Shown here: positions 14,771 through 35,796 of the stretch, piece by piece
Position numbering within the stretch: the stretch's first letter is position 1
Layout of the letters: each line of letters begins with the position of its first letter
Notes under the pieces: generated by a model
The model's input: only the letters and a program-made list of their open reading frames with translations
The model's database searches: none
What the model was told of the DNA's origin: nothing
IMG/VR virus record: IMGVR_UViG_3300034103_001647
Span: 1 to 35,796 of that record
Length of the DNA stretch: 35,796 bases
Direction: 5' to 3' (one strand)
From: a virus
Position numbers and translations under genes: made by a program

Positions 14771-15066
14771 CAGACTGCGCCATCGGGACATGGCGGCGGC
14801 GCCATCGTTTCGTCGGCGACGATGTCGAGTGTGTCGTTTTCAAATATTTCCAACAGCAGAATACCGTAGGCCACTGGATCTGCCAGCCAATCCTGTACGC
14901 GCCCATGCCACATAATCATGTCGCCGGCATGGATGGCGGCACGCATTTCTAACAGCGTGGTGGCTAGCAGGTCGCCGATCAGCACGCCATCTCGCCAGGT
15001 CACCTCGGAGGTGACCTGGCGCCCATCGGCAGCGTTAGTTTTTAGAACACCTCGCGCGGTAATCAT
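14767..15066 (-). CDS. Small hypothetical protein after the MuF fusion gene
   Basis: A 99-residue protein (MITARGVLKTNAADGRQVTS...) with an acidic C-terminal half (EIFENDTLDIVADE). No family is recognised. The start overlaps the stop of the MuF-zincin gene by one base (TGATG), so the two are coupled. In phage MuF toxin loci the gene immediately after the toxin can be its immunity protein, so this is a candidate, but a small head-assembly gene is equally possible. The coding sequence contains a 29-base palindrome at 14993..15021. Confidence 0.7.
   Translation of the reverse strand: MITARGVLKTNAADGRQVTSEVTWRDGVLIGDLLATTLLEMRAAIHAGDMIMWHGRVQDWLADPVAYGILLLEIFENDTLDIVADETMAPPPCPDGAVC
14993..15021. 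repeat. 29-base perfect inverted repeat inside a coding region
   Basis: Two 14-bp arms (CGCCAGGTCACCTC and its complement) flank a single central G. It would form a DNA cruciform or a very stable RNA hairpin in the transcript of the small gene at 14767..15066. It has no T tail. It may be a protein-binding site or an mRNA processing or attenuation element upstream of the capsid genes. Confidence 0.8.
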
Positions 15067-17288
15067 CAGAGCGATAATAGCAGACGTAGCATGAAGTTGA
15101 CGTAGTCGCGGTCATTCCAAAAACCAATGCTATTTCTTCCCTCTGAAATACCACCAATTCTAAAAATTTGCTGAATGGCCATCGTCCCTATCTCGTTTGA
15201 CGGCAGCTTATCTAATCCAGATTCTGGCCAAATATCTGGATACCTTTTTTCAAACTCGTATCGCAAAATATCAATATCTAAATCTCCGTAAATTTTTCCG
15301 GCATAATGACTGTAAAAGTCATCCCTAATACCAAATTCTCCCGAGTTTGCATATATTTCGGATGCGATTTCACCACCTTTGATTCTGCTTGTCAAAAATC
15401 GCCATTCTTTTTCTCGTACCCTCGGATAAAGACGTTCCGCAAAATGCCACAGTTCATGCATAGAAACTCGAAACAGTTCGTTTGAATCAAGATTTGATAG
15501 TGCAATTATTGATCCGTCTAGCGTGGCAAATCCACGTCTAACAACTGCCGTTTTTGTGTTATTTGATATTGTATATTCAACAAGTTTGTCCCATACTTCT
15601 TTTGGAAAATATTGCCTGGTTGATTGAAGTGCACTAATGGCGGGATCAATTGCTGTGGCGCCAATGATATTCCAGTCACCAGTCAACGACAACGCGCGCG
15701 TTGACTGGCCATAGTCCGGCCGGACATCGCGAATGGTGGCCAGCATCACGTCAGCCGTCGGCGGTTCTTGACTAAGCACCAGCGAATTGTATTCATCAAT
15801 AAGCGCATCTTGGCGAGCGCGCTTTTTGTCTTTTAATCTAAAAAATTTATCGCCAGCTTTCATTTGCGCTTCCATATTGCACTTTTTTAGTGATTTATTT
15901 TTTTTGCAAAATTCATCATAATTATTCCATTCCTTAAGTGCATCTGTAATATCTTCTTCTATTTGCTGTATTTCTTTTTCTAATTCATTTTTTCGACGCG
16001 CTGGCACGTCGTCAAATCCCGAACGACGATACGCCTCGGCGCGAACGACGTCGGTAAACTGCGCGGGATCCTCGCCGGCTGCGATGCGGTACCTGGCGTC
16101 CAGCATCTCTGGCGTCAGGTCAGCATCAGGCGTCGGATATTCGTACTGGCCGACCCAATCCGGCGATGATGCCGAGCGCTGGACAGCAGAGGACTGCAGC
16201 CGAGGCGTAGGCGCCACGCTGGCCGGCGCAGGTGTCGGTGTTGGCACTGGCGTACCTGCCACGCCACCTGCGCGACGCACGGCAGCGTTAGCCTGCGACG
16301 TGGCCAGCGACGCCTCTTGGTAGGATGTTCCCCACTGGTCGCTGTACCGCGGCGCCACCATGTCATCCAGTTCCAACTCGCCAGACTTCCACGCATCGTA
16401 CTTGCCATTGCCGAGCAGGCGCCGCTGGTCGGCCTCTGGCAGCGACTCCAGATAGTCGCGGCCAGTCTGTCCCTTCGGCTGCGGGTAGTCGCGCAGGATA
16501 GGCTTGCCGACGCATCGGCACTGCGGATGGCCGGGAAAGAACGTGACGCTAGTGGGAAACTCCGTGCCGTCCATGATCAGGCATGCCGAGCACGTGCGCG
16601 GTCCCTTGAATGCGTGCCACTCCCATCCGCTGATCAGGTTGGCGTTGGCGGCGAACGACGCCAGGTTGGCCTGCTTGCCAGCGCGCAGGATCTCCGTACG
16701 CGCAATGACCTGCGCACGCTGCCGGCTGACGCCGACGGCACGCTGGATGGCGTCGCCGACCACGCGCGCGTTGCGGCCCTGGCCGATGCCATCCAGCAGC
16801 GTCTGGCGCAGCACTGCGCTGCCGGTGGCGCCGAACGTGTCCAGCAGGTCGCGCAGTGGTCCCGTCGACGTCGCGGCAATGATCTCGCGCAGTGCAGGCG
16901 CCGACAGCGTGCGGAACGATGACGCGACCACAGCCTGGCCGGCGACAGCCTGCACGCTGGCAGACGCTGCTGCGGCGCCGGCTGCAGCTGCATTGGTCTG
17001 TGCGACCGGCAGCAGGCTGTTCAGCGTCTGGCCGTAGTCATCCAGCTCGCGCAGCGCCTGCTCTTCTAGCGCGCGCAGGCGGTCGAGCCGTTCAATCTGC
17101 CACGGCTGCACGTCCGGCCCTAGCGCGTCGATATCTGCTTGCAGCGCGTCGCCGATGTCCCGCAGGCTGACTAGCACGTCTTCAATGCCGCTGGCGAGGA
17201 TGCGCTGCGCTGCCGCGTCCTGCGTCAGCAACGCCACGCGGAACGCGTTCAGGACAGCGTCAAGGCGACTACCGCGCGGCACAGACAC
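15066..17288 (-). CDS. MuF-type head morphogenesis protein fused to HExxH zincin domain
   Basis: A 740-residue protein. Residues about 130-265 carry the MuF/SPP1 gp7 head-morphogenesis domain (RAQVIARTEILRAGKQANL, GWEWHAF, CSACLIMDG and FPGHPQCRC). A Pro/Thr/Ala linker (about 340-370) leads to a C-terminal region. Residues 430-500 are a Lys/Glu-rich coiled coil with cysteines. Residues about 540-740 form a putative metallopeptidase with HELWH at 611-615 (15444..15458) and downstream Glu candidates for the third zinc ligand (ASEIYANSGEF, and NEIGTMAIQQ). The C-terminal half is visibly A/T-rich against high-GC neighbours, so it was probably acquired. MuF proteins can carry effector domains into the virion. 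A GTG start overlaps the portal stop (TAGTG). Confidence 0.85.
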   Translation of the reverse strand: MSVPRGSRLDAVLNAFRVALLTQDAAAQRILASGIEDVLVSLRDIGDALQADIDALGPDVQPWQIERLDRLRALEEQALRELDDYGQTLNSLLPVAQTNAAAAGAAAASASVQAVAGQAVVASSFRTLSAPALREIIAATSTGPLRDLLDTFGATGSAVLRQTLLDGIGQGRNARVVGDAIQRAVGVSRQRAQVIARTEILRAGKQANLASFAANANLISGWEWHAFKGPRTCSACLIMDGTEFPTSVTFFPGHPQCRCVGKPILRDYPQPKGQTGRDYLESLPEADQRRLLGNGKYDAWKSGELELDDMVAPRYSDQWGTSYQEASLATSQANAAVRRAGGVAGTPVPTPTPAPASVAPTPRLQSSAVQRSASSPDWVGQYEYPTPDADLTPEMLDARYRIAAGEDPAQFTDVVRAEAYRRSGFDDVPARRKNELEKEIQQIEEDITDALKEWNNYDEFCKKNKSLKKCNMEAQMKAGDKFFRLKDKKRARQDALIDEYNSLVLSQEPPTADVMLATIRDVRPDYGQSTRALSLTGDWNIIGATAIDPAISALQSTRQYFPKEVWDKLVEYTISNNTKTAVVRRGFATLDGSIIALSNLDSNELFRVSMHELWHFAERLYPRVREKEWRFLTSRIKGGEIASEIYANSGEFGIRDDFYSHYAGKIYGDLDIDILRYEFEKRYPDIWPESGLDKLPSNEIGTMAIQQIFRIGGISEGRNSIGFWNDRDYVNFMLRLLLSL

Positions 17289-20405: not shown

Positions 20406-20440
20406 TTTTAGCCTTTGCGTTTTCCGGATATGGCAACGCT

Positions 20441-20469
20441 AGCGTAGTGAACCACTACACTTACTTCAA
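20441..20469 (-). promoter_or_regulatory. Weak promoter with palindromic site before terS
   Basis: On the minus strand, TTGAAG (20464..20469), 17 bases, then TACGCT (20441..20446) could be a weak sigma-70 promoter. A perfect inverted repeat GTAGTG-AAC-CACTAC (20444..20458) covers the -10 and spacer and could be an operator. It is the only promoter-like site seen between the periodic region and terS. Confidence 0.35.
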
Positions 20470-21794
20470 TCGTACCACACAATCTGAAGTCTGGTCGCGG
20501 GTGTCGACGCCGGCGCGCAATGTCGCGGCCCGGTTCGGCGTGGTTAGTCGCGTGGTATGCCGTGATTCGTGCTGGCGAGGCTAGTCGCGTGTCTGGCGTT
20601 GACTCGTCATGGTTAGTCGTCAGGCATGGATTGGCACGACCAGGATTGACTAGTCGCATGGCTTTGCTGTGACGCGCTATGTCCCGTCGGGTGTGCTGCT
20701 GTGGCGAGGCTTGGATGGTCGTGCGTGCTGGCTGGACACGGCAAGTGTTGGTTAGTCGGTACGCGTGGCCGCGGGTAGGCATGGCGCGGGTAGGATAGTC
20801 GCTCGCGCAGGCATGCGTCGGCATGGCGTGTCAAGTCGTCTGCTGTGTGCTGCGATGGCCAGGCGTGTCAAGTCGCTGCGTTAGGCAACGCTGTGGCAAG
20901 TCGCGTGGTGTGTGGCGCAGCGTGCCGGCCAGTGAAGATTGGTCGCGTGGCGAGGCTCGGCGTGGCGCGTTCGGTCAAGGCACGGGATGGCATGTCGGTT
21001 GCGTGGTAGCGCGGTGACTTGGCTTGCGATGTCGTCTGGCGCGGTTCGGCAGGACATGGGAAGGCCTGACTTGGCACGGGTCGTCGGCGGTGGTGGCAGG
21101 GGTCCAGGCGCGGCGCTGGTCGCCCGCATGACTGCGGCCATGGCCTGCATCGGCTGCGCCCGGAAAACGCGCCGTGCCAGCGGAGTGAAGACTGGCGAGG
21201 CCTTGACGCCCCGCCTGGACCGCTACCACCACACAAAAGCGTAGCATGGCGCCGTCGGCTGGCGAGTTCTGGCTAGGCACGGTTTGTCGCGCTGGCGAGG
21301 CGAGTTCTGAACCGGTACGGTTAGTCGAACGCTATGCCGCGGTTGGCCTTGACGCGATTGGTCACGGATGGTCATGTCGTGCGGTGCGGTGGGATCAGTG
21401 GCGCACAGCGTGGTCATGGCTAGTCGAACGAATCGGTGTGCGTGGAATAGATCAGCGCAGTGCAGTGAAGTCGTTTGGCGCGATACGTTTCGTGTTGCAG
21501 GGACTAGTCGCTTGCTATGGCGAGGCGAGGCTGGACACGCAGGGGTTAGTCGCCAGCAGTGCGCAGGGTGGTGGTGGGATGTGTAGTCGCGCGGGAAGGC
21601 GTGGTAAGCGCCGGTTGTCGCCGAGTTGTGCAGTCGTGATTCGTACCGCGGCGATATGGCCTGTCGTGCTGTGGTCGTGCTGTGCTGTTTCGGCCTGAAG
21701 CGTTCTGTCGCTCGCGCTGTCTTGACAAAAGACGCGATGTGCGGTCGGTCTGTGGTGCTGCGCCGTGGCCAGTGGCGCCAATGGTTTGTGGCCG
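20470..21794. repeat. Non-coding region with degenerate 37-bp periodic hexamers
   Basis: No credible gene is found in this 1.3-kb stretch. The plus strand is G/T-rich and the leftward strand is C/A-rich. TAGTCG occurs at 20545, 20582, 20614, 20651, 20753, 20796, 21322, 21421, 21505, 21547 and 21584, and AAGTCG at 20833, 20870, 20898 and 21468. Related GTCG hexamers occur at 20716, 20940, 20992 and 21029. Exact 37-bp steps occur between 20545-20582, 20614-20651, 20716-20753, 20796-20833, 20833-20870, 20992-21029, 21468-21505 and 21547-21584. Sequence between hexamers is poorly conserved. Open frames exist but 37 is not a multiple of three. It could be a Rho-dependent termination zone, a pac/partition site or a non-coding RNA. 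Confidence 0.7.
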
Positions 21795-21823
21795 GTGGCC
21801 GGCAGCGTCATGCTGCCGGCCAC
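21795..21823 (-). terminator. Hairpin at the end of the early operon
   Basis: GTGGCCGGCAGC, a 5-base loop (GTCAT) and GCTGCCGGCCAC form a perfect 12-bp, very GC-rich stem starting 11 bases past the last early gene. On the minus strand it is followed by CGGCCACAAACC, without a T run, so it may need Rho or may protect the mRNA 3' end rather than act as a simple intrinsic terminator. Confidence 0.6.
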
Positions 21824-21834
21824 AGATGTCTGTG

Positions 21835-23833: not shown

Positions 23834-24301
23834 CTACTCCAGTATCACAACCTGGACACCACCCTGATGCAGCGTCCGCAGGATGGCATCCCACCCGTCC
23901 GGAATAGTATGCGCTCGCACAATGCAACGTGCAAGCCCTGCCGCAATGATGAACAACGCGCACGACGGACATGGCGCCTTCGTGACGACGATGTCGGCGC
24001 CGAGGATGCGGCGCCCGTGCATCGCGGCAGTGCAGATGGCTGCCGTTTCCGCGTGCAGGTGGCGCGCATGGTCGCGACCAGTGCCGGCAGTGCCAGCCGA
24101 GATCCATTCGCATCCATCGTCGACGCAGCCCACAACGCCATGTGGCGCGCCATTGACGCCGACCACGATGGCGTAGCCGTCGACCACGATGGCGGCGCCT
24201 ACAGCAGCAGCAGGACATCGCTGGTTCTGCATCGCATGGATTTCCAACGCGTGCATGATGCCGCGGTAGGCTTCGTGCGACGCCTGGCTAGTCGCCGTCA
24301 T
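23834..24301 (-). CDS. dCMP deaminase
   Basis: A zinc-dependent deoxycytidylate deaminase of 155 residues. HAE (83-85) supplies the zinc ligand and catalytic Glu, and PCPSC (110-114) gives the two cysteine ligands. The N-terminal part fits the family: ALEIHAMQNQRCPAAAVGAA, then IVVDGYAIVVGVNGAPHG, with the typical Asn-Gly and a C...D.C.W zinc-structural segment before the HAE. It converts dCMP to dUMP, the substrate of the phage's own ThyX. The start at 24301 overlaps the previous gene by 14 bases. An internal Met (residue 16) is a possible alternative start. Confidence 0.92.
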   Translation of the reverse strand: MTATSQASHEAYRGIMHALEIHAMQNQRCPAAAVGAAIVVDGYAIVVGVNGAPHGVVGCVDDGCEWISAGTAGTGRDHARHLHAETAAICTAAMHGRRILGADIVVTKAPCPSCALFIIAAGLARCIVRAHTIPDGWDAILRTLHQGGVQVVILE

Positions 24302-24518
24302 CGCCGCCACCGATCTGGACCAACTCTGCAGCAGTGAACCATCGCCGTTCGCCGGCGCATGGTCCTTCGTCCAGTCGCACCAACAGGTTGCGCTCGCCAC
24401 CGATAGGCGACACGATTTCCACGTAGCCGAGATGGCCGCCGTACAGTTCGATCTCCGATACCGTCCAGCCTTTGGCGCGGTCCACGATACGCACGGTACC
24501 GCGTGGCGTTTCTGACAT
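24288..24518 (-). CDS. Small hypothetical early protein, 76 residues
   Basis: A 76-residue acidic protein (MSETPRGTVRIVDRAKGW...) with a beta-rich pattern: VRIVDR, TVSEIELYGGHLGYVEIVSP, and NLLVRLDEG, followed by a short FTAAELVQI helix. It could be a small SH3- or OB-like domain, but no family is certain. The ATG at 24518 is preceded by GAGGGGG. An upstream in-frame ATG exists but lacks a comparable ribosome site. Confidence 0.7.
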   Translation of the reverse strand: MSETPRGTVRIVDRAKGWTVSEIELYGGHLGYVEIVSPIGGERNLLVRLDEGPCAGERRWFTAAELVQIGGGDDGD

Positions 24519-24532
24519 AGAATCCCCCTCCC

Positions 24533-24871
24533 CTAGAATGGGCACGGTTCATGGTTCAGTGTCAGCAGGCTAGACCACTGCTCGCGCAGGTCGCCTGGCC
24601 TATCGCCGACAGTGTGCGCGTAGTCTAGGCCAAATGCAACCAACTGCCGCCTGGCGTCATCGCCGATGCGGATGGCGTGCAGTCGCGCAGCCCTCGCCAC
24701 CCGCTGCCAGTCATCCGTGATGGCCTCCAGTCTGGCCTGATGGCCATCGTAGATTGCGCGTTTGGCGTCGTGGTCTGGCGCCCCGGCATTGGCGTCCAGC
24801 CATGCGAGGCGCTGCGCCTGGCGATGCTCCAGTACCACCATCTGCCGTACCAGATCCTCGGAGGCAACCAC
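24533..24871 (-). CDS. Hypothetical helical early protein
   Basis: About 112 residues if started at the GTG that overlaps the upstream TAG (TAGTG at 24869..24873); the open frame extends further upstream but lies inside the preceding gene. The protein is helical and Arg/Ala/Gln-rich (EHRQAQRLAWLDANAG, then RAIYDGHQARLEAITDDWQR), ending in LNHEPCPF. No motif is recognised. The start is uncertain because the ribosome site is weak and an internal ATG is also possible. Confidence 0.55.
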   Translation of the reverse strand: MVASEDLVRQMVVLEHRQAQRLAWLDANAGAPDHDAKRAIYDGHQARLEAITDDWQRVARAARLHAIRIGDDARRQLVAFGLDYAHTVGDRPGDLREQWSSLLTLNHEPCPF

Positions 24872-25236
24872 TAGTCGCCGGACCGCGTCGACGCGGTCGG
24901 ATTCCCACTGGTCAGAAACGCCGTGGTGCCTTCTGCGGCCCGTAGCGCGCCCGCTACGGCTTCGTATCGTTCCAACAGGGTCAACCATGCCTGCTCCCTC
25001 TGGTCGTGCGCTGTGGCGCCTTTGTGGCCGTCGTTGCGGTCCATCCAGTCGGCGCCTGCGTGCAGCTGCGGCAGCATGCCGTCATGCTCACGCTGCAGCG
25101 CAATGCCGATGACGTGCGCGCGACTGCGTGCCGCTGCTCGGCGCCTGTCGAATGCCATCCCGGCCACGCGGTCGCACAACGCAACGAACGCCGCGGTATC
25201 GTCGAATCGCTGCGCATGCTCGCGCCAGATGTCCAT
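24871..25236 (-). CDS. Hypothetical helical early protein, first gene after the origin
   Basis: A 121-residue helical protein starting MDIWREHAQRFDDTAAFVAL, with a basic middle (FDRRRAAARSRAHVIGIALQ) and a His/Asp-rich stretch. GGAGG lies 7 bases upstream of the ATG at 25236. The gene is the first leftward gene after the DnaA-box/palindrome origin. No family is recognised. Because it is next to the origin it could be a replication accessory protein; that is inference from position only. Confidence 0.65.
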   Translation of the reverse strand: MDIWREHAQRFDDTAAFVALCDRVAGMAFDRRRAAARSRAHVIGIALQREHDGMLPQLHAGADWMDRNDGHKGATAHDQREQAWLTLLERYEAVAGALRAAEGTTAFLTSGNPTASTRSGD

Positions 25237-25303
25237 GCCGCTGCCTCCGATCCGTGCCAACGCGTCACGGTTTACTATGCAACTGCATACCAGTTGCCAG
25301 CAC

Positions 25304-25369
25304 TGTGGACAAAGTTATCCACAGAGTTATCCACAGCCCATAAAAAAGTTATCCACAGAGTTATCCACA
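25304..25369. other. Replication origin, DnaA-box cluster
   Basis: Four perfect DnaA boxes TTATCCACA lie at 25315, 25327, 25349 and 25361, all on the plus strand. They are two tandem pairs of the 12-mer AGTTATCCACAG (the last copy ends in T), separated by 10 bases containing AAAAA. A fifth, reversed near-match (TGTGGACAA at 25304..25312) faces them. This density of exact host-initiator sites in a 66-bp span is strong evidence for a DnaA-dependent origin. It lies next to the phage primase-helicase gene. Confidence 0.88.
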
Positions 25370-25430
25370 TTCTTTGCCACAGTGAATTGACACGGACCGA
25401 CTAAAGAACCATGCCGAAAAAACGTTGATG

Positions 25431-25633
25431 GTGTCGGTCACTGTCGGTTTTTGTTGTCCGACACATTTGTTCGGAGATCTCCGCAGTTTTTGGCAGTGTC
25501 GGTCTGTCGGACACAAATTTCCCCCGCGCAAGGTGGAAAACACTGTCCGACAGACCGACACTGCCAGTTTGTTCGGAGATCTCCGAACAAAACTGTCAGC
25601 AGCAAAAAACCGACAAATGACCGACAGCCGACA
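25431..25633. repeat. Origin iteron region: 200-bp imperfect palindrome with ten TGTCGG hexamers
   Basis: A 23-bp perfect inverted repeat (25491..25513 and 25544..25566) flanks a 30-base centre. Outward, both arms continue as imperfect copies, including GGAGATCTCC-centred palindromes (25472..25483 and the 24-bp perfect palindrome 25568..25591) and TGTCGG tracts. TGTCGG occurs at 25432, 25442, 25497 and 25505, and its complement CCGACA at 25458, 25547, 25555, 25610, 25621 and 25628. The arrangement resembles iterons for a replication initiator and could extrude a large cruciform. Open frames across it are ignored because they follow the repeat symmetry. Confidence 0.85.
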
Positions 25634-25673
25634 ATTTTGGCGCCGTTCGGCGGCAGACACGACAACATCGCCG

Positions 25674-27956
25674 CTAGTCTTCATCGGGTAAACCGATCAT
25701 GCCGAGCAGTGGTGTATAGACCACGGTTTCGTTGTCCAGCATGGCCTTCAGCGTCTTGGCGAAATCCTGGCCGCTCCATTTTCGGCTGCTGCAGGCACGC
25801 TGCAATTGCCGCCTTGTCATCGGTCCGTGTTTGCGCAGAGATTGCAGGACACGGTTTTCAATGACCACGTCGCGACCGACAGCCCATTCAGCCATCATCA
25901 CGCGCACGTTTCGCCAAGTCCATTCCACCAGCGCAATCGCCGGCTGCACGTGCTGCGTGTCGATGACTGCCGCGCCATCGCTGGCCGCGTAGACCAGCGC
26001 GACCTTGACCGCCATCGTTTGGTGCCGCTGGCGCATGGTCGACTCGTCTTCATCGTGTTCCACGCTATCCAACAGCGCGTTGTACCAGGTCCCCATCATC
26101 GCCTTGGCTGCGTCCGTCATCCGCAGCACAGTGCCAGGCGGATAGTCCAGCATCGTTCTGGCGAGGCGGTCATACAGGCGCCATCCTGCGTGCGGGTCAA
26201 GTTCGCCCGGCACGTCCATGCGTCCCTTGCCAACGCCGGGAATGATCAGCCAGCGGTTTAGGAAACCGCTGGCGATGTCATCGTCGGTGACCTCGTTTGC
26301 AAACCGCGATGGCTGCGTCGCGGCGATGATAGACAGGTACGGATTCTCGGCACGCGACGGGTTGTACTTGTTTAGATTTTCCAACACGTGCGGACTGTCC
26401 CATGCTTCGATCAGCCGCGCCAGAATCGTGCTGGTCCCCTTGCGCCGCGCATTCGACAGCAGCATGGACAGTTCCGTCAGGTACAGCAGGGTATTCGGTT
26501 CGGCCTTGAGCATCTGCACGACGCCCTCGGATGACGACACGTCGCGGGACAGCGCGTAGGCCGGCGCGCGCAACGATCCGTCGGCGCCGACCAGCTGCGG
26601 CAGGGATGTCGCCCACCCGATGGCGGTATCTTTTTTGCTACTGCCAGATGGCCCAATAAGAACCGTGTACAGGTTGGCGAACAGGTCCGGACCGAACCGC
26701 GTGCGCACGCGTCTGCCGAGCAGCGCCGCGGCGACCGTCAGCGACGCGCCTAGGTGGAATTGGTCTGGCGATACCGTCAGGTCGCCGACCAAGTTGCGGT
26801 AATCGCCGAACCACCCGAACCACACATCGTCCGGCAGCGGGTCGACCACGAACGGGTTGACGCGCTGCGCGGTCGTGCTGCTCGCCTTGGCAGCCGTGCG
26901 GTCCGTGCCGTGCATGATGATGCCGTTGGCGCCTGTCTCCGTGCGCAGCGTCGCCAGTTCGCGGTCAATGAAGTCGACCACGCTGGCCGGCAACTGCTGG
27001 CGCAGGATTTGAAAGCCTGACGTGACCGCGCCAGCCTTCAGTCGCTGGTACGTCGACCGGACCGCCTTGGCGCGGTCCCATGGTTCGTCATCGTCGGCGC
27101 TTGCGTCAGCCATCATCGCGGCAGCCTGATCCTCTGGCACGCCAGATTTGGCCAGGTACCCTGCAAACCCGAGCGCAAGCGTATGGCGCCCGCCTTTGGT
27201 CCAGTATGGCCTGACAGCCTCTACAATCGCTTCAGCGCGTTGATTCTCCAGTTTGCGTGCGTGCATCGGCAGCGCCATCCGGACCGTGCCAGGCGCCAAC
27301 GTAGTGGCGATGTGCTGCAGGTCTGCCACCGACAGCGCGCCATCGCGCGTCTGCAGCGTCGCCACGGTACGCGGGATGCCTTTGCCGTTGATGCTGCCGG
27401 CCAGGCGATACACGCGCGTGCCGCTGTCGCTGGCGGCAGGGTCGATCACTCGCCAGCCGGCGCGTTTGTTGATGCCGGCAATGATGGCTTTGTGCGCCTC
27501 GCGTATGGCTTCGATGTCGCGGCCATCGGTGACACGAACCAACGCCAGCAGGCCATGGCCGGTGTACGTCAGCGCGTGCACAGGCAGGTTGGCCGCAGCG
27601 AAATGCTCGGCAACCTCCTCGGCAAACAGCGCAATCATCGCGTCTATTTCATCCTGCGGCAGGTCGTGCAGCGACGTGCCGCTGTCCACGACATCCCAGT
27701 CGGCCAGATCGCAGTCGAACGGCAGCGTGTGCACGCGTACCAGGTTCTTTTGTTCGCGACCATGCCGAGCATGAATCGTGCCTGGCGCAAATGCGCCGCT
27801 GGCAAAATAGATATCTGTGGCCGCGACATCGCGGTCGGCGACATCCGACAGCAGGCGGTTCTGCACCACGCCATCACGGATCCGGACGATAACCAATTCC
27901 TCGCCAGGGTATGCGGTCACGCCGAGCGCGGCCACTGCCTCGCCGATGGTCGCCAT
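25674..27956 (-). CDS. Primase-helicase (AEP-like primase plus DUF3987-type ATPase)
   Basis: A 760-residue replication protein. The N-terminal 200 residues fit an archaeo-eukaryotic-type primase: a DxD in LPFDCDLADWD (Asp 81 and 83), a TYTGHGLLALVRV strand motif, and a DSGTRVYRLAGSINGKG segment with conserved Arg and Asn. The C-terminal half is a helicase-like ATPase with a P-loop variant at 435-442 (GPSGSSKK) and LYLTELSMLLSNARRKG in the Walker B region. The P-loop has Lys-Lys instead of the usual Lys-Ser/Thr. It would prime and unwind DNA at the adjacent origin, and no DNA polymerase is encoded, so the host enzyme must extend. The ATG has AGGAG upstream. Confidence 0.85.
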   Translation of the reverse strand: MATIGEAVAALGVTAYPGEELVIVRIRDGVVQNRLLSDVADRDVAATDIYFASGAFAPGTIHARHGREQKNLVRVHTLPFDCDLADWDVVDSGTSLHDLPQDEIDAMIALFAEEVAEHFAAANLPVHALTYTGHGLLALVRVTDGRDIEAIREAHKAIIAGINKRAGWRVIDPAASDSGTRVYRLAGSINGKGIPRTVATLQTRDGALSVADLQHIATTLAPGTVRMALPMHARKLENQRAEAIVEAVRPYWTKGGRHTLALGFAGYLAKSGVPEDQAAAMMADASADDDEPWDRAKAVRSTYQRLKAGAVTSGFQILRQQLPASVVDFIDRELATLRTETGANGIIMHGTDRTAAKASSTTAQRVNPFVVDPLPDDVWFGWFGDYRNLVGDLTVSPDQFHLGASLTVAAALLGRRVRTRFGPDLFANLYTVLIGPSGSSKKDTAIGWATSLPQLVGADGSLRAPAYALSRDVSSSEGVVQMLKAEPNTLLYLTELSMLLSNARRKGTSTILARLIEAWDSPHVLENLNKYNPSRAENPYLSIIAATQPSRFANEVTDDDIASGFLNRWLIIPGVGKGRMDVPGELDPHAGWRLYDRLARTMLDYPPGTVLRMTDAAKAMMGTWYNALLDSVEHDEDESTMRQRHQTMAVKVALVYAASDGAAVIDTQHVQPAIALVEWTWRNVRVMMAEWAVGRDVVIENRVLQSLRKHGPMTRRQLQRACSSRKWSGQDFAKTLKAMLDNETVVYTPLLGMIGLPDED

Positions 27957-28032: not shown

Positions 28033-28551
28033 CTACGGCAAATCGTCGCCCCAAAGATCGTCCGGCGCCGGCGCGGCAGCAGCCTTGGCCGCAGGCTTCT
28101 TGGCTGGCCGCGACATCACGTGCCGCACCACGCCATAGCCTTTGGCGTTGACCTCGGACTTCGTGCCAACGATCAGCCGCGCGTTCAGGATCTCGTCAAA
28201 GTCGACACCCTCGGCAGGCTTCAGGTCGCGCGCCAGAATCGCCGTCACAACCTCGCGCAGTTTGGCCTTGGCGCCTAGCGACATGCCGTACAGGCAGCTG
28301 AACCGCTCGCCACGCTGGTCGCCGTCAACCACGGTGTACAGCAGCCGAACCATCGTGCGCGTGCCGTACTGTTCGCTGGTCAGTTCGAAGGGATCGCTGT
28401 AGCCCGTCAACGCAACGATTTTTTCGCCATCGTCGATGGTGTCGTTGATGTCATCGCGATCGTATTCCACCAGGCTGACCTGGCCGGCCTTGTCCTTGAC
28501 GTAGTACTGCGCCGAACCGGCGCCGCTGCTCGCAGAAATCGTCAATGCCAT
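28033..28551 (-). CDS. Putative single-stranded DNA-binding protein
   Basis: A 172-residue protein with a beta-rich N-terminal domain (about 1-145) and an Ala/Pro/Lys linker leading to the acidic tip DDLWGDDLP, the architecture typical of phage and bacterial ssDNA-binding proteins whose acidic tail binds partners. No definite OB-fold motif is visible by eye, so it is called by architecture and by position next to the primase-helicase. The start ATG at 28551 has GGGAG upstream. The tail differs from the bacterial DDDIPF-type end, but it could still recruit host or phage replication proteins. Confidence 0.65.
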   Translation of the reverse strand: MALTISASSGAGSAQYYVKDKAGQVSLVEYDRDDINDTIDDGEKIVALTGYSDPFELTSEQYGTRTMVRLLYTVVDGDQRGERFSCLYGMSLGAKAKLREVVTAILARDLKPAEGVDFDEILNARLIVGTKSEVNAKGYGVVRHVMSRPAKKPAAKAAAAPAPDDLWGDDLP

Positions 28552-30975: not shown

Positions 30976-31209
30976 ATGGGACAGCAGCTGTACCTGATTG
31001 AACGACAGGCGACCGAACAGGCGCCGTGGGAGTGGTCGACGCTGACGGACCAGCCGTTGGAGCATGCCGCGTACGCTGGTTGGCTGCAGGCGTGGAACGT
31101 GCTGGACATGCTGATTGGCACCAGCGACCAGTGGTCTAGTGGCCACTACCGCGTAGCCGCCATCGTGCTGGATGCCGAGGCGCCAGGCGGATTCCGGTAC
31201 GCGTACTGA
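30976..31209 (+). CDS. Small hypothetical early protein, 77 residues
   Basis: A 77-residue protein (MGQQLYLIERQATEQAPWEW...), Trp-rich and acidic, starting one base after the stop of the preceding gene, so probably coupled. No recognised domain. A strong hairpin terminator follows at 31223. The longer open frame upstream lies over the preceding gene. Confidence 0.7.
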   Translation: MGQQLYLIERQATEQAPWEWSTLTDQPLEHAAYAGWLQAWNVLDMLIGTSDQWSSGHYRVAAIVLDAEAPGGFRYAY

Positions 31210-31222
31210 TCGGTGGTGCATA

Positions 31223-31252
31223 CTGCCGGCGACGCCTCGGCGTCGCCGGCAG
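31223..31252 (+). terminator. Hairpin terminator before thyX
   Basis: CTGCCGGCGACGCC, two bases and GGCGTCGCCGGCAG form a perfect 14-bp stem, followed by TCGCGTTT. It probably ends much of the transcript from the 30569 promoter. The thyX ribosome site lies 8 bases further on, so read-through would be needed for thyX. Confidence 0.75.
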
Positions 31253-31270
31253 TCGCGTTTGGAGGCAGGC

Positions 31271-32026
31271 ATGGACACGGTATTTCGTTCGGACATCGCC
31301 GTCAGGTACGTGGCGCATATGGGTGATGACCTCGCGATCATTGAAGATGCCAGGACGTCGCTGCGCCGTCCTGGCAAGTCGACGATGCCGAGTGGCGACC
31401 GCAGCCTGTCGGATGGCCAGCGCGCGCGCCTGGTCGATTTCCTGACGCTGCGGCACGCCAGCACGCTGCGCGGTTGCGTGTTGAAAGTGGAAGTAGAATG
31501 CCCGATCTTCATCCAGCGGCAGCTGCGCACGCATTGGGTAGGGATGGCGCAAGGTTGGTCGGAAAACGATTGGCTGGGATTCAACGACCAGTCTGGCCGC
31601 TACTCGCGCCAGGCGCCGCAGTTTTGGGTACCCTCTGACGTGCGATTGGAGCGCGACGGATTCGACCCGATGGCGCCATCGTTCGGCGAGGCAGTGCCAG
31701 CGTTCGCTGACAGCATCAGGCAGGATATGGCCGGCGCCTACCAGCACGCGTTTGCCGCCTATCGCCGGCTGATTGACGCAGGCGTCGCCAGAGAACAGGC
31801 GCGCGCATTGCTGCCCGAAGGCCTGTACGTGGCTGGTCGCATCACTGGCAATTTGAACGCGTGGCTAGGCCTGCTGTCGCTGCGCGTCAATCATCCGCAG
31901 AACGCGACGCCGACGCATCCGCAGGCCGAAATCCATGCGCTTGCGACGCAGGTGGAAACGCTGGTCGCCGAGCATTGGCCGGAAACGCACGCCGCTTGGC
32001 AGGCGTCGGGACGCAGTCGACCGTAG
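31271..32026 (+). CDS. thyX: Flavin-dependent thymidylate synthase, divergent
   Basis: A 251-residue protein with ThyX features: TLRHASTLRGCVLKVEVECP, FIQRQLRTHW, GFNDQSGRYS (the NE.SGRY signature) and a C-terminal ARALLPEGLY followed by the Asn/Arg-rich active-site helix (LNAWLGLLSLR), and HPQAEIHALA. The enzyme makes dTMP from dUMP with methylene-folate and FAD. The usual RHR-x7-S is altered: RTHW is followed by an extra stretch (VGMAQGWSENDWL) before FNDQSGRY. It would use dUMP made by the dCMP deaminase. GGAGG lies 5 bases before the ATG. Confidence 0.85.
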   Translation: MDTVFRSDIAVRYVAHMGDDLAIIEDARTSLRRPGKSTMPSGDRSLSDGQRARLVDFLTLRHASTLRGCVLKVEVECPIFIQRQLRTHWVGMAQGWSENDWLGFNDQSGRYSRQAPQFWVPSDVRLERDGFDPMAPSFGEAVPAFADSIRQDMAGAYQHAFAAYRRLIDAGVAREQARALLPEGLYVAGRITGNLNAWLGLLSLRVNHPQNATPTHPQAEIHALATQVETLVAEHWPETHAAWQASGRSRP

Positions 32027-34661: not shown

Positions 34662-35782
34662 CAGCAGCCTCCAGAGGCAACGGCTGCTGTCGCCCCCAGT
34701 GCGCGATACGCGCCTCGGCGATCGCCGCGTACTCCGGCGACTGTTCGCAGCCGACGAACGTGAACCCCTCTAACGCAGCCGCGCAGCCCGTCGTGCCGCT
34801 GCCGGTGAACGGATCTAGCACGACGCCGCCCGGTGGCGTCACGAGGCGCACGAGGTGGCGCATGAGGGAGATCGGCTTGACGGTGGGGTGATGGTTCTGT
34901 TCGACTACGCCGACGGCTGGTGTCTGCTGCGGTAGCGGTCCCTGTCCCTTTTCGCCGTAACGGTGAGCGCGACGCTCCGGCATCCCGTCTAGCCCCGCGT
35001 TGCGTTCGCGAGTCGACGCCTTCGCGACGTAGAAGAACCGCGACGCGCCGCCTCGGTCGCCGTAGCCGATGTCATCAGCTTTTCGCGATGTCATCCTGAT
35101 AGATGACCTTCCGGTTAGATATCCGTCCTCAGGAAGATTGCGTTTTATTGCTACGCCTGACGGACGGTCCCCGCTCTGCTCGTCAAGCATCGCCGCCGCG
35201 TCGTCGTCGAGCATCACGTTCGCTGGCCAGCGGCCGCCGGTTAGACGATCGACACCGCCTCGGCGAACGCCATATGCAAGCGGTGTCGCAATCGCTCCCG
35301 CTGCTCCGCCGGAGCAGCGGTCATCGCCGTCACCGATCCGACACCCGTCAATGTTCAACGCACCCGTGCCGTGCGCGATCACGTTCGCGGCGACCGTCCC
35401 GGCGAACGGCTTGCGCGCGACGATGACCGGTTCCCACCCCGGCTTCAGCGCGGTGCCCCAGCCTTGCCAGTCGCGGGCGAGGTTGTGCGACTTCGGGAAC
35501 CCGCTACCGTACAGCCACGAGATCGTGTCGCGGATCTCGAACCCGGCATCTTCAATGGCAACCGCGATCCGGTGAAACGTGCGCGACCCGCCAAACGCTA
35601 GCAAATGCCCGCCCGGCTTCAGTACGCGCAAGCACGCTGCCCACGTCGCCGCGTCGAACGCGACGCCGGATCGGTCCCATGATTTACCCATGAAGCCCAA
35701 TTCGTATGGCGGGTCGGTGACGATAGCGTCGACGCTACCAGCCTCCATCGTCGCCATCACGTCGCGGCAGTCGCCGACCAGC
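34654..35782 (-). CDS. DNA methyltransferase (N4/N6-type), 5' end completed at 1..134
   Basis: The main part of a 378-residue amino-methyltransferase. DPPY at 26-29 (motif IV, catalytic) lies near the N-terminus and DPFTGSGTT (326-334, SAM-binding motif I) near the C-terminus, the order of beta-class enzymes. The segment LGFMGKSWDR is typical of phage-borne members. The middle holds the target recognition region (about 110-290). The frame runs off the left part of the contig copy; the start codon lies at 134 in the first copy of the terminal repeat. It may protect phage DNA from host restriction. It lies between the small membrane protein and the endolysin. Confidence 0.92.
35657..35782. repeat. 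126-bp direct terminal repeat (identical to 1..126)
   Basis: These 126 bases are identical to positions 1..126. The two copies complete one methyltransferase frame, so they are one locus seen twice at the ends of a circular or circularly permuted molecule rather than two sites. A true terminal redundancy of this length cannot be excluded. Confidence 0.95.
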
Positions 35783-35796
35783 CATACGAATTGGGC
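35781..35796. other. Inverted 16-base copy at the contig end (likely fold-back artefact)
   Basis: The last 16 bases are the reverse complement of 39..54 (and of 35695..35710), joined with a 2-base overlap to the direct repeat. The sequence does not continue the methyltransferase frame found at 127..134. It is best explained as a chimeric fold-back read or amplification artefact. Confidence 0.7.

Follow-up and report, generated by a model that had tools for sequence, protein, structure and literature searches.

A repeat-built palindrome behind a primase-helicase gene, with an adjacent DnaA-box array, as a candidate phage replication origin

Little mapping has been done of replication origins in tailed phages that rely on primase-helicases, and a locus in the virus record IMGVR_UViG_3300034103_001647 (IMG/VR), analysed here over a window that comprises all of its 35,796 bases, raises the question of whether a phage that encodes an initiator draws on the host initiator as well. 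In the 437-base-pair (bp) gap 25237-25673, downstream of the gene for a 760-amino-acid (aa) replication protein, we identified an array of DnaA boxes together with a 196-bp palindrome (Table 1). An initial annotation had described four perfect boxes and one reversed near-match as a DnaA-dependent origin, overlooking both the palindrome and a sixth, weak box that starts at 25373. We regard the site as most likely an origin, with the palindrome as its better-supported core and DnaA as a possible helper.

The palindrome begins 46 bp past the stop codon of the replication gene and lies between that gene and the boxes, and its DNA fold has a z-score of −15.3. Its repeats, TGTCGG and CCGACA, are present in 10 copies within 293 bp, compared with 0.44 expected from the rest of the genome (class TGTYGG). 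Foldback during assembly was rejected as the cause of the palindrome because the arms mismatch at about a quarter of their positions and because a diverged counterpart is present in another phage. Searches with the palindrome core among viral contigs and with the palindrome region among phage records gave no match.

That counterpart was identified through the replication gene. A single-protein search of viral contigs found no close relatives of the gene, and an alignment search yielded one full-length relative (39% identity), on a 40,054-bp phage contig, L347. Directly after the stop codon of the L347 gene lies a 266-bp palindrome (L347:6247-6512; DNA z-score −17.4) that contains 12 copies of TGTTGGACA, a repeat absent from the remainder of the 40,000 bases read. 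The palindrome regions of the window and L347 share no alignable sequence beyond 8-mers, but their commonest hexamers are TGTCGG in the window region and TGTTGG in the L347 region. A changed repeat with retained symmetry is the outcome that would be expected from selection on the palindrome itself. When 80 loci encoding DUF3987, the ATPase/helicase family of the replication protein, were scanned together with the window region for folding in windows of 250 nucleotides, the outliers were the window region (z = −9.6) and L347 (z = −8.6), followed by a locus at z = −5.3; in both outliers, the most structured window was located at most 24 bp from the stop codon. Matches to the DnaA-type box TTRTNCACA were absent from the 40,000 bases of L347 that were read, and no such pair was found in the whole record. 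The gene and the palindrome are thus common to the window and L347, whereas the DnaA array is not, and with two genomes, gain of the array in one lineage is indistinguishable from loss in the other. Relatives of the terminase were found at 69 loci, most with 44-56% identity; neither the replication gene nor a DnaA pair was present in any of the 44 records searched.

The palindrome also folds strongly as RNA and would be transcribed, and it could accordingly act at that level, as a terminator, an RNase III site or a stabiliser, in which case the boxes would be incidental and the origin would lie elsewhere, for example in 20406-21834, which is rich in repeats of one orientation. Terminators are, however, far shorter, terminator-like matches inside the palindrome are close to the shuffled expectation, and two palindromes composed of short repeats with a changed unit are better suited to protein-DNA binding; we regard the RNA alternative as clearly improbable. 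Scans with Rfam models and for tRNAs found nothing. Transcription through the site, which the initial annotation had assumed, is plausible because both flanking genes are on the minus strand and read in the same direction. The cumulative GC skew that it had proposed as a check was calculated and follows gene strand; it cannot decide the position of the origin because most genes of the genome are on the minus strand. The 1.43 kilobases of 20406-21834, between a TerS-like gene and the early genes, have no coding potential (G 38.5%, A 14%) and contain degenerate words in one orientation, with no reverse complements (GGTTAGTCG-type five times, TAGTCG 11 times and GGCGAGGC seven times); this region might serve in packaging, encode a regulatory RNA or be a second candidate origin.

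The replication protein matches DUF3987 (E = 2 × 10−19, with Walker-type motifs) and PHROG primase/helicase families. By eye, we recognised motifs resembling those of archaeo-eukaryotic primases (AEP) in its N-terminus (D-C/F-D, TGHGL and D..SD.GTR) and a C-terminal segment resembling a winged helix, both of which are conserved with the L347 homologue. Pfam gave no AEP match in the protein, with PriCT_1 at E = 0.06 only, the winged-helix segment has no profile match, and a search of solved structures gave no match; a structure prediction of the N-terminal 385 aa (predicted local distance difference test score 43) was not used. The neighbouring product of 28033-28551 has a sub-threshold match to the NGO0469 phage replication initiation family. 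Comparison of about 40 gene candidates with PHROGs, many of which remained without annotation, agrees with the earlier statement that the genome encodes no polymerase and no integrase, although the primase-polymerase-like domain may itself polymerise. The plasmid-like state that had been suggested gained no support, as the same, partly annotated candidates included neither partition nor plasmid Rep families (PHROGs, and for a subset also Pfam and NCBIfam).

Turning to the boxes, the four perfect copies of TTATCCACA have the same orientation and lie within 55 bp at start-to-start distances of 12, 22 and 12 bp; they and the reversed near-match are located where the initial annotation had placed them. 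No other perfect copy is present in the window, and about 0.045 perfect boxes would be expected per genome, both strands together, under a second-order Markov model. Boxes with at most one mismatch number 10, compared with 3.0 in shuffles, and 10 was reached in 0 of 100 shuffles. The cluster of predicted high-affinity DnaA boxes, assigned to DnaA by their sequence, is confirmed as real. The 30-bp window from 25339, inside the array, is the least stable spot of the gap and ranks within the bottom 0.5% of the genome in stability; less stable DNA exists elsewhere in the genome, and no clear DnaA-trio was seen. AGATCT, described for E. coli as an ATP-DnaA box (PMC8203912), occurs four times in the window, twice in the palindrome arms (25475-25480 and 25577-25582), possibly by chance.

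Four perfect and two weaker boxes in helical order, with an unstable spacer, are what could be expected of a host-type origin, at which DnaA would initiate on the tandem boxes, melt the adjacent AT-rich DNA and load the host helicase, leaving the palindrome a secondary role; bacterial genome contigs carry the same double-pair layout in 64 stretches, with Rubrobacter, Thermus and Competibacter among them. We consider this alternative doubtful, though not negligible, given that the phage encodes its own primase-helicase. An origin at this site is well supported, mainly by the palindrome behind the replication gene and its counterpart in L347, but DnaA as the initiator, as originally proposed, is unsupported because L347 keeps the gene and the palindrome without boxes and because phages with their own full replisomes also carry DnaA-box arrays.

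We further compared the array to 2.9 million viral contigs. The pair TTATCCACA-N3-TTATCCACA was found in at least 120 viral-contig stretches, compared with 6 for the reversed pattern, and double pairs were found in 76, compared with 0. Phased DnaA arrays in phage contigs are rare but recurrent, so that the earlier description of exact clustered boxes as unusual in siphophages was correct as to their rarity but too strong. The arrays were mostly intergenic, pairs falling outside open reading frames at about twice the frequency of random positions, and the proteins flanking them belong to phage families (VapE, methylases, portal, terminase), with neither DnaA nor DnaN among the 25 commonest flanking families listed; some phage-labelled records are host oriC, such as one from Acinetobacter that contains dnaA and dnaN. 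VapE was present in 11 of 50 phage records with DnaA pairs, and DUF3987 in none of the 50. At 4 of 10 independent phage loci, the array starts at most 100 bp behind the VapE gene (p ≈ 2 × 10−5 for uniform placement, and p = 0.004 for arrays five-fold concentrated in gaps), values that are indicative only, the 100-bp limit having been set after the distances were seen. In the contig L200, the array falls within an open reading frame whose product resembles, by eye, a phage replication-initiation protein. Three separate phage contigs (L177, L187 and L192) share a recurrent DnaA-box module, a near-identical 54-bp double-pair array, TTATCCACATAGTTATCCACAGGTGTTGATAAGTTATCCACATAGTTATCCACA, of which the L192 copy is a two-base variant. 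A large palindrome near the DnaA array was rejected as a general rule for other phages.

Boxes alone are not proof of an origin, because arrays are also found in the early region of the T7-like phage P483 and in the injection-stop region of T5, which holds repeats, inverted repeats, palindromes and DnaA boxes (PMC13250531); more evidence is needed before phased arrays, which recur in phage genomes, are taken for origins. The likeness to T5 could also suggest a signal for DNA entry or packaging. We judge this extremely unlikely, as the element lies within a run of same-strand early genes, several kilobases from the terminase genes, and the L347 palindrome follows the replication gene without any DnaA boxes.

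DnaA is, in addition, a known transcription regulator that acts via such boxes (PMC8203912), and those of the window are upstream of a same-strand gene (24871-25236), towards which DnaA might regulate or block transcription; alternatively, phage copies might titrate DnaA away from the host and so halt initiation there. A weak promoter-like stretch (TTGTCC, 17 bp, TATGCA), recognised by eye, and the reversed box overlap, whereas no promoter above threshold was found in 24800-26000. Four sites per genome would titrate only weakly early in infection, and neither role would explain why the boxes are so closely linked to the replication gene and the palindrome. Regulation or titration by DnaA thus appears quite unlikely.

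The reading that we favour, and hold to be somewhat probable on sequence grounds, is that the gap is a replication origin in which the palindrome is the core for the phage protein and the DnaA array is an accessory. We infer that the 760-aa protein would recognise the palindrome in cis by binding the repeated TGTCGG sites, assemble on it, open it and prime, after which host enzymes would extend. The array (25304-25381), on the far side of the palindrome from the gene, would be an accessory module at which host DnaA might assist in duplex opening or bring in DnaB and the host replisome, in the manner of iteron plasmids such as P1, F and RK2. Several points weigh against this reading. Conservation of the palindrome is based on two genomes, with one close relative only, and nothing similarly structured is present at the corresponding position of the 79 more distant DUF3987 loci. 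Recognition of the primase and winged-helix domains was by eye, and the helicase was assigned to DUF3987, not to superfamily 3 (SF3), the helicase type of the plasmid pRN1, discussed below. A long palindrome behind a gene could act in RNA, and the site preferred by the DnaA of the host may differ from the box sequence. An origin with two initiators, namely the phage primase-helicase on the palindrome and host DnaA on the array, would make two replication modes selectable, for example DnaA-driven early or low-copy replication vs. lytic amplification driven by the phage protein; we consider this rather unlikely.

Table 1. Features of the candidate origin and its flanking genes (window coordinates)
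Feature	Coordinates	Strand	Remarks
Reversed DnaA-like box, TTGTCCACA	25304-25312	-	Fits TTRTNCACA
Perfect DnaA box, TTATCCACA	25315-25323, 25327-25335, 25349-25357, 25361-25369	+	
First tandem pair of perfect DnaA boxes, TTATCCACAGAGTTATCCACA	25315-25335	+	
A-rich spacer, GCCCATAAAAAAG	25336-25348		Separates the tandem pairs; candidate melting site
Second tandem pair of perfect DnaA boxes	25349-25369	+	Identical to first pair
Weak sixth box, TTTGCCACA	25373-25381	+	Two mismatches; 12-bp phase maintained
Imperfect palindrome, 196 bp	25432-25627		TGTCGG / CCGACA repeats; candidate origin core
Perfect 24-bp palindrome, TTTGTTCGGAGATCTCCGAACAAA	25568-25591		Within the larger palindrome; partial second copy at 25466-25483
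Replication protein, 760 aa	25674-27956	-	DUF3987 ATPase/helicase; AEP-like primase motifs and C-terminal winged helix recognised by eye
Candidate single-strand-binding or replication accessory protein	28033-28551	-	Acidic C-terminus; putative assignment
Early gene, 121 aa	24871-25236	-	Without family; GGAGG before ATG; downstream of gap

The two ends of the record share an exact 126-bp repeat (1-126 and 35657-35782), so that it probably represents a whole genome, either terminally redundant or circular in the assembly. The last 14 bases (35783-35796) continue as a near-reverse-complement of nearby sequence (25/27), probably an assembly foldback. Genes for nucleotide metabolism are found around the replication module, namely a dCMP deaminase in the early region (23834-24400, minus strand) and a Thy1-type thymidylate synthase (31172-32026) on the plus strand, opposite to most genes. 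The GC content is about 0.41 at 15001-16000, inside the head-morphogenesis gene 15066-17288, compared with about 0.62 in the rest of the genome; this segment, which contains the least stable DNA of the genome, is possibly a recent insertion or foreign.

Comparison with known systems places the locus near several types of origin. Phages with VapE-type primase-helicases (for example L089, L130, L182 and L187) likewise have phased TTATCCACA pairs at most 100 bp behind the primase-helicase gene, but their primase-helicase belongs to a different family, the orientation of the boxes relative to the gene varies, and no comparable palindrome is near the array. DnaA boxes also belong to the origins of the plasmids P1, F, RK2 and pSC101 (PMC4980987). 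These origins place repeats for the plasmid's own protein beside host DnaA boxes, as the window would if its repeats are bound by the phage protein, and they resemble the window in their tandem box arrays with an AT-rich stretch. In contrast to these iteron plasmids, the window repeats form a palindrome instead of a direct array, and neither a plasmid Rep (winged-helix RepA/RepE/TrfA type) nor partition genes were found in the window genome. In phage P4, one protein, alpha, combines primase, helicase and winged helix and acts on repeats in cis (PMC4234260). The window resembles it in the apparent combination of one such protein with repeats in cis, whereas the P4 primase is of the Toprim type, unlike the window protein. 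To our knowledge, no DnaA array is known at the P4 origin.

The plasmid pRN1 has a 100-bp stem-loop, needed for replication, that starts 54 bp downstream of orf904, a gene encoding an AEP, a helicase and a winged helix, and an equivalent stem-loop has been suggested for the Bordetella phages BIP-1/BPP-1 (PMC4234260). In BPP-1, the region downstream of the primase is moderately structured, and the 6 kilobases examined contain no DnaA-type box. As in pRN1, with its ORF904 primase-polymerase/helicase, one window protein appears to combine an AEP-like primase, an ATPase/helicase and a winged helix, a large stem-loop occupies the noncoding DNA directly downstream of its gene, and, as seen through L347 in two genomes, structure is kept while sequence has diverged. 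The window stem differs in being about twice as long, in being made of short repeats that pRN1 lacks and in having a DnaA-box array beside it, and the window protein contains DUF3987, not a proven SF3 helicase. The locus is a candidate, not a confirmed, member of the pRN1 type, since neither profiles nor structure supported an SF3 helicase or the primase and winged-helix domains; if our inference is right, the window element would work like the pRN1 kind.
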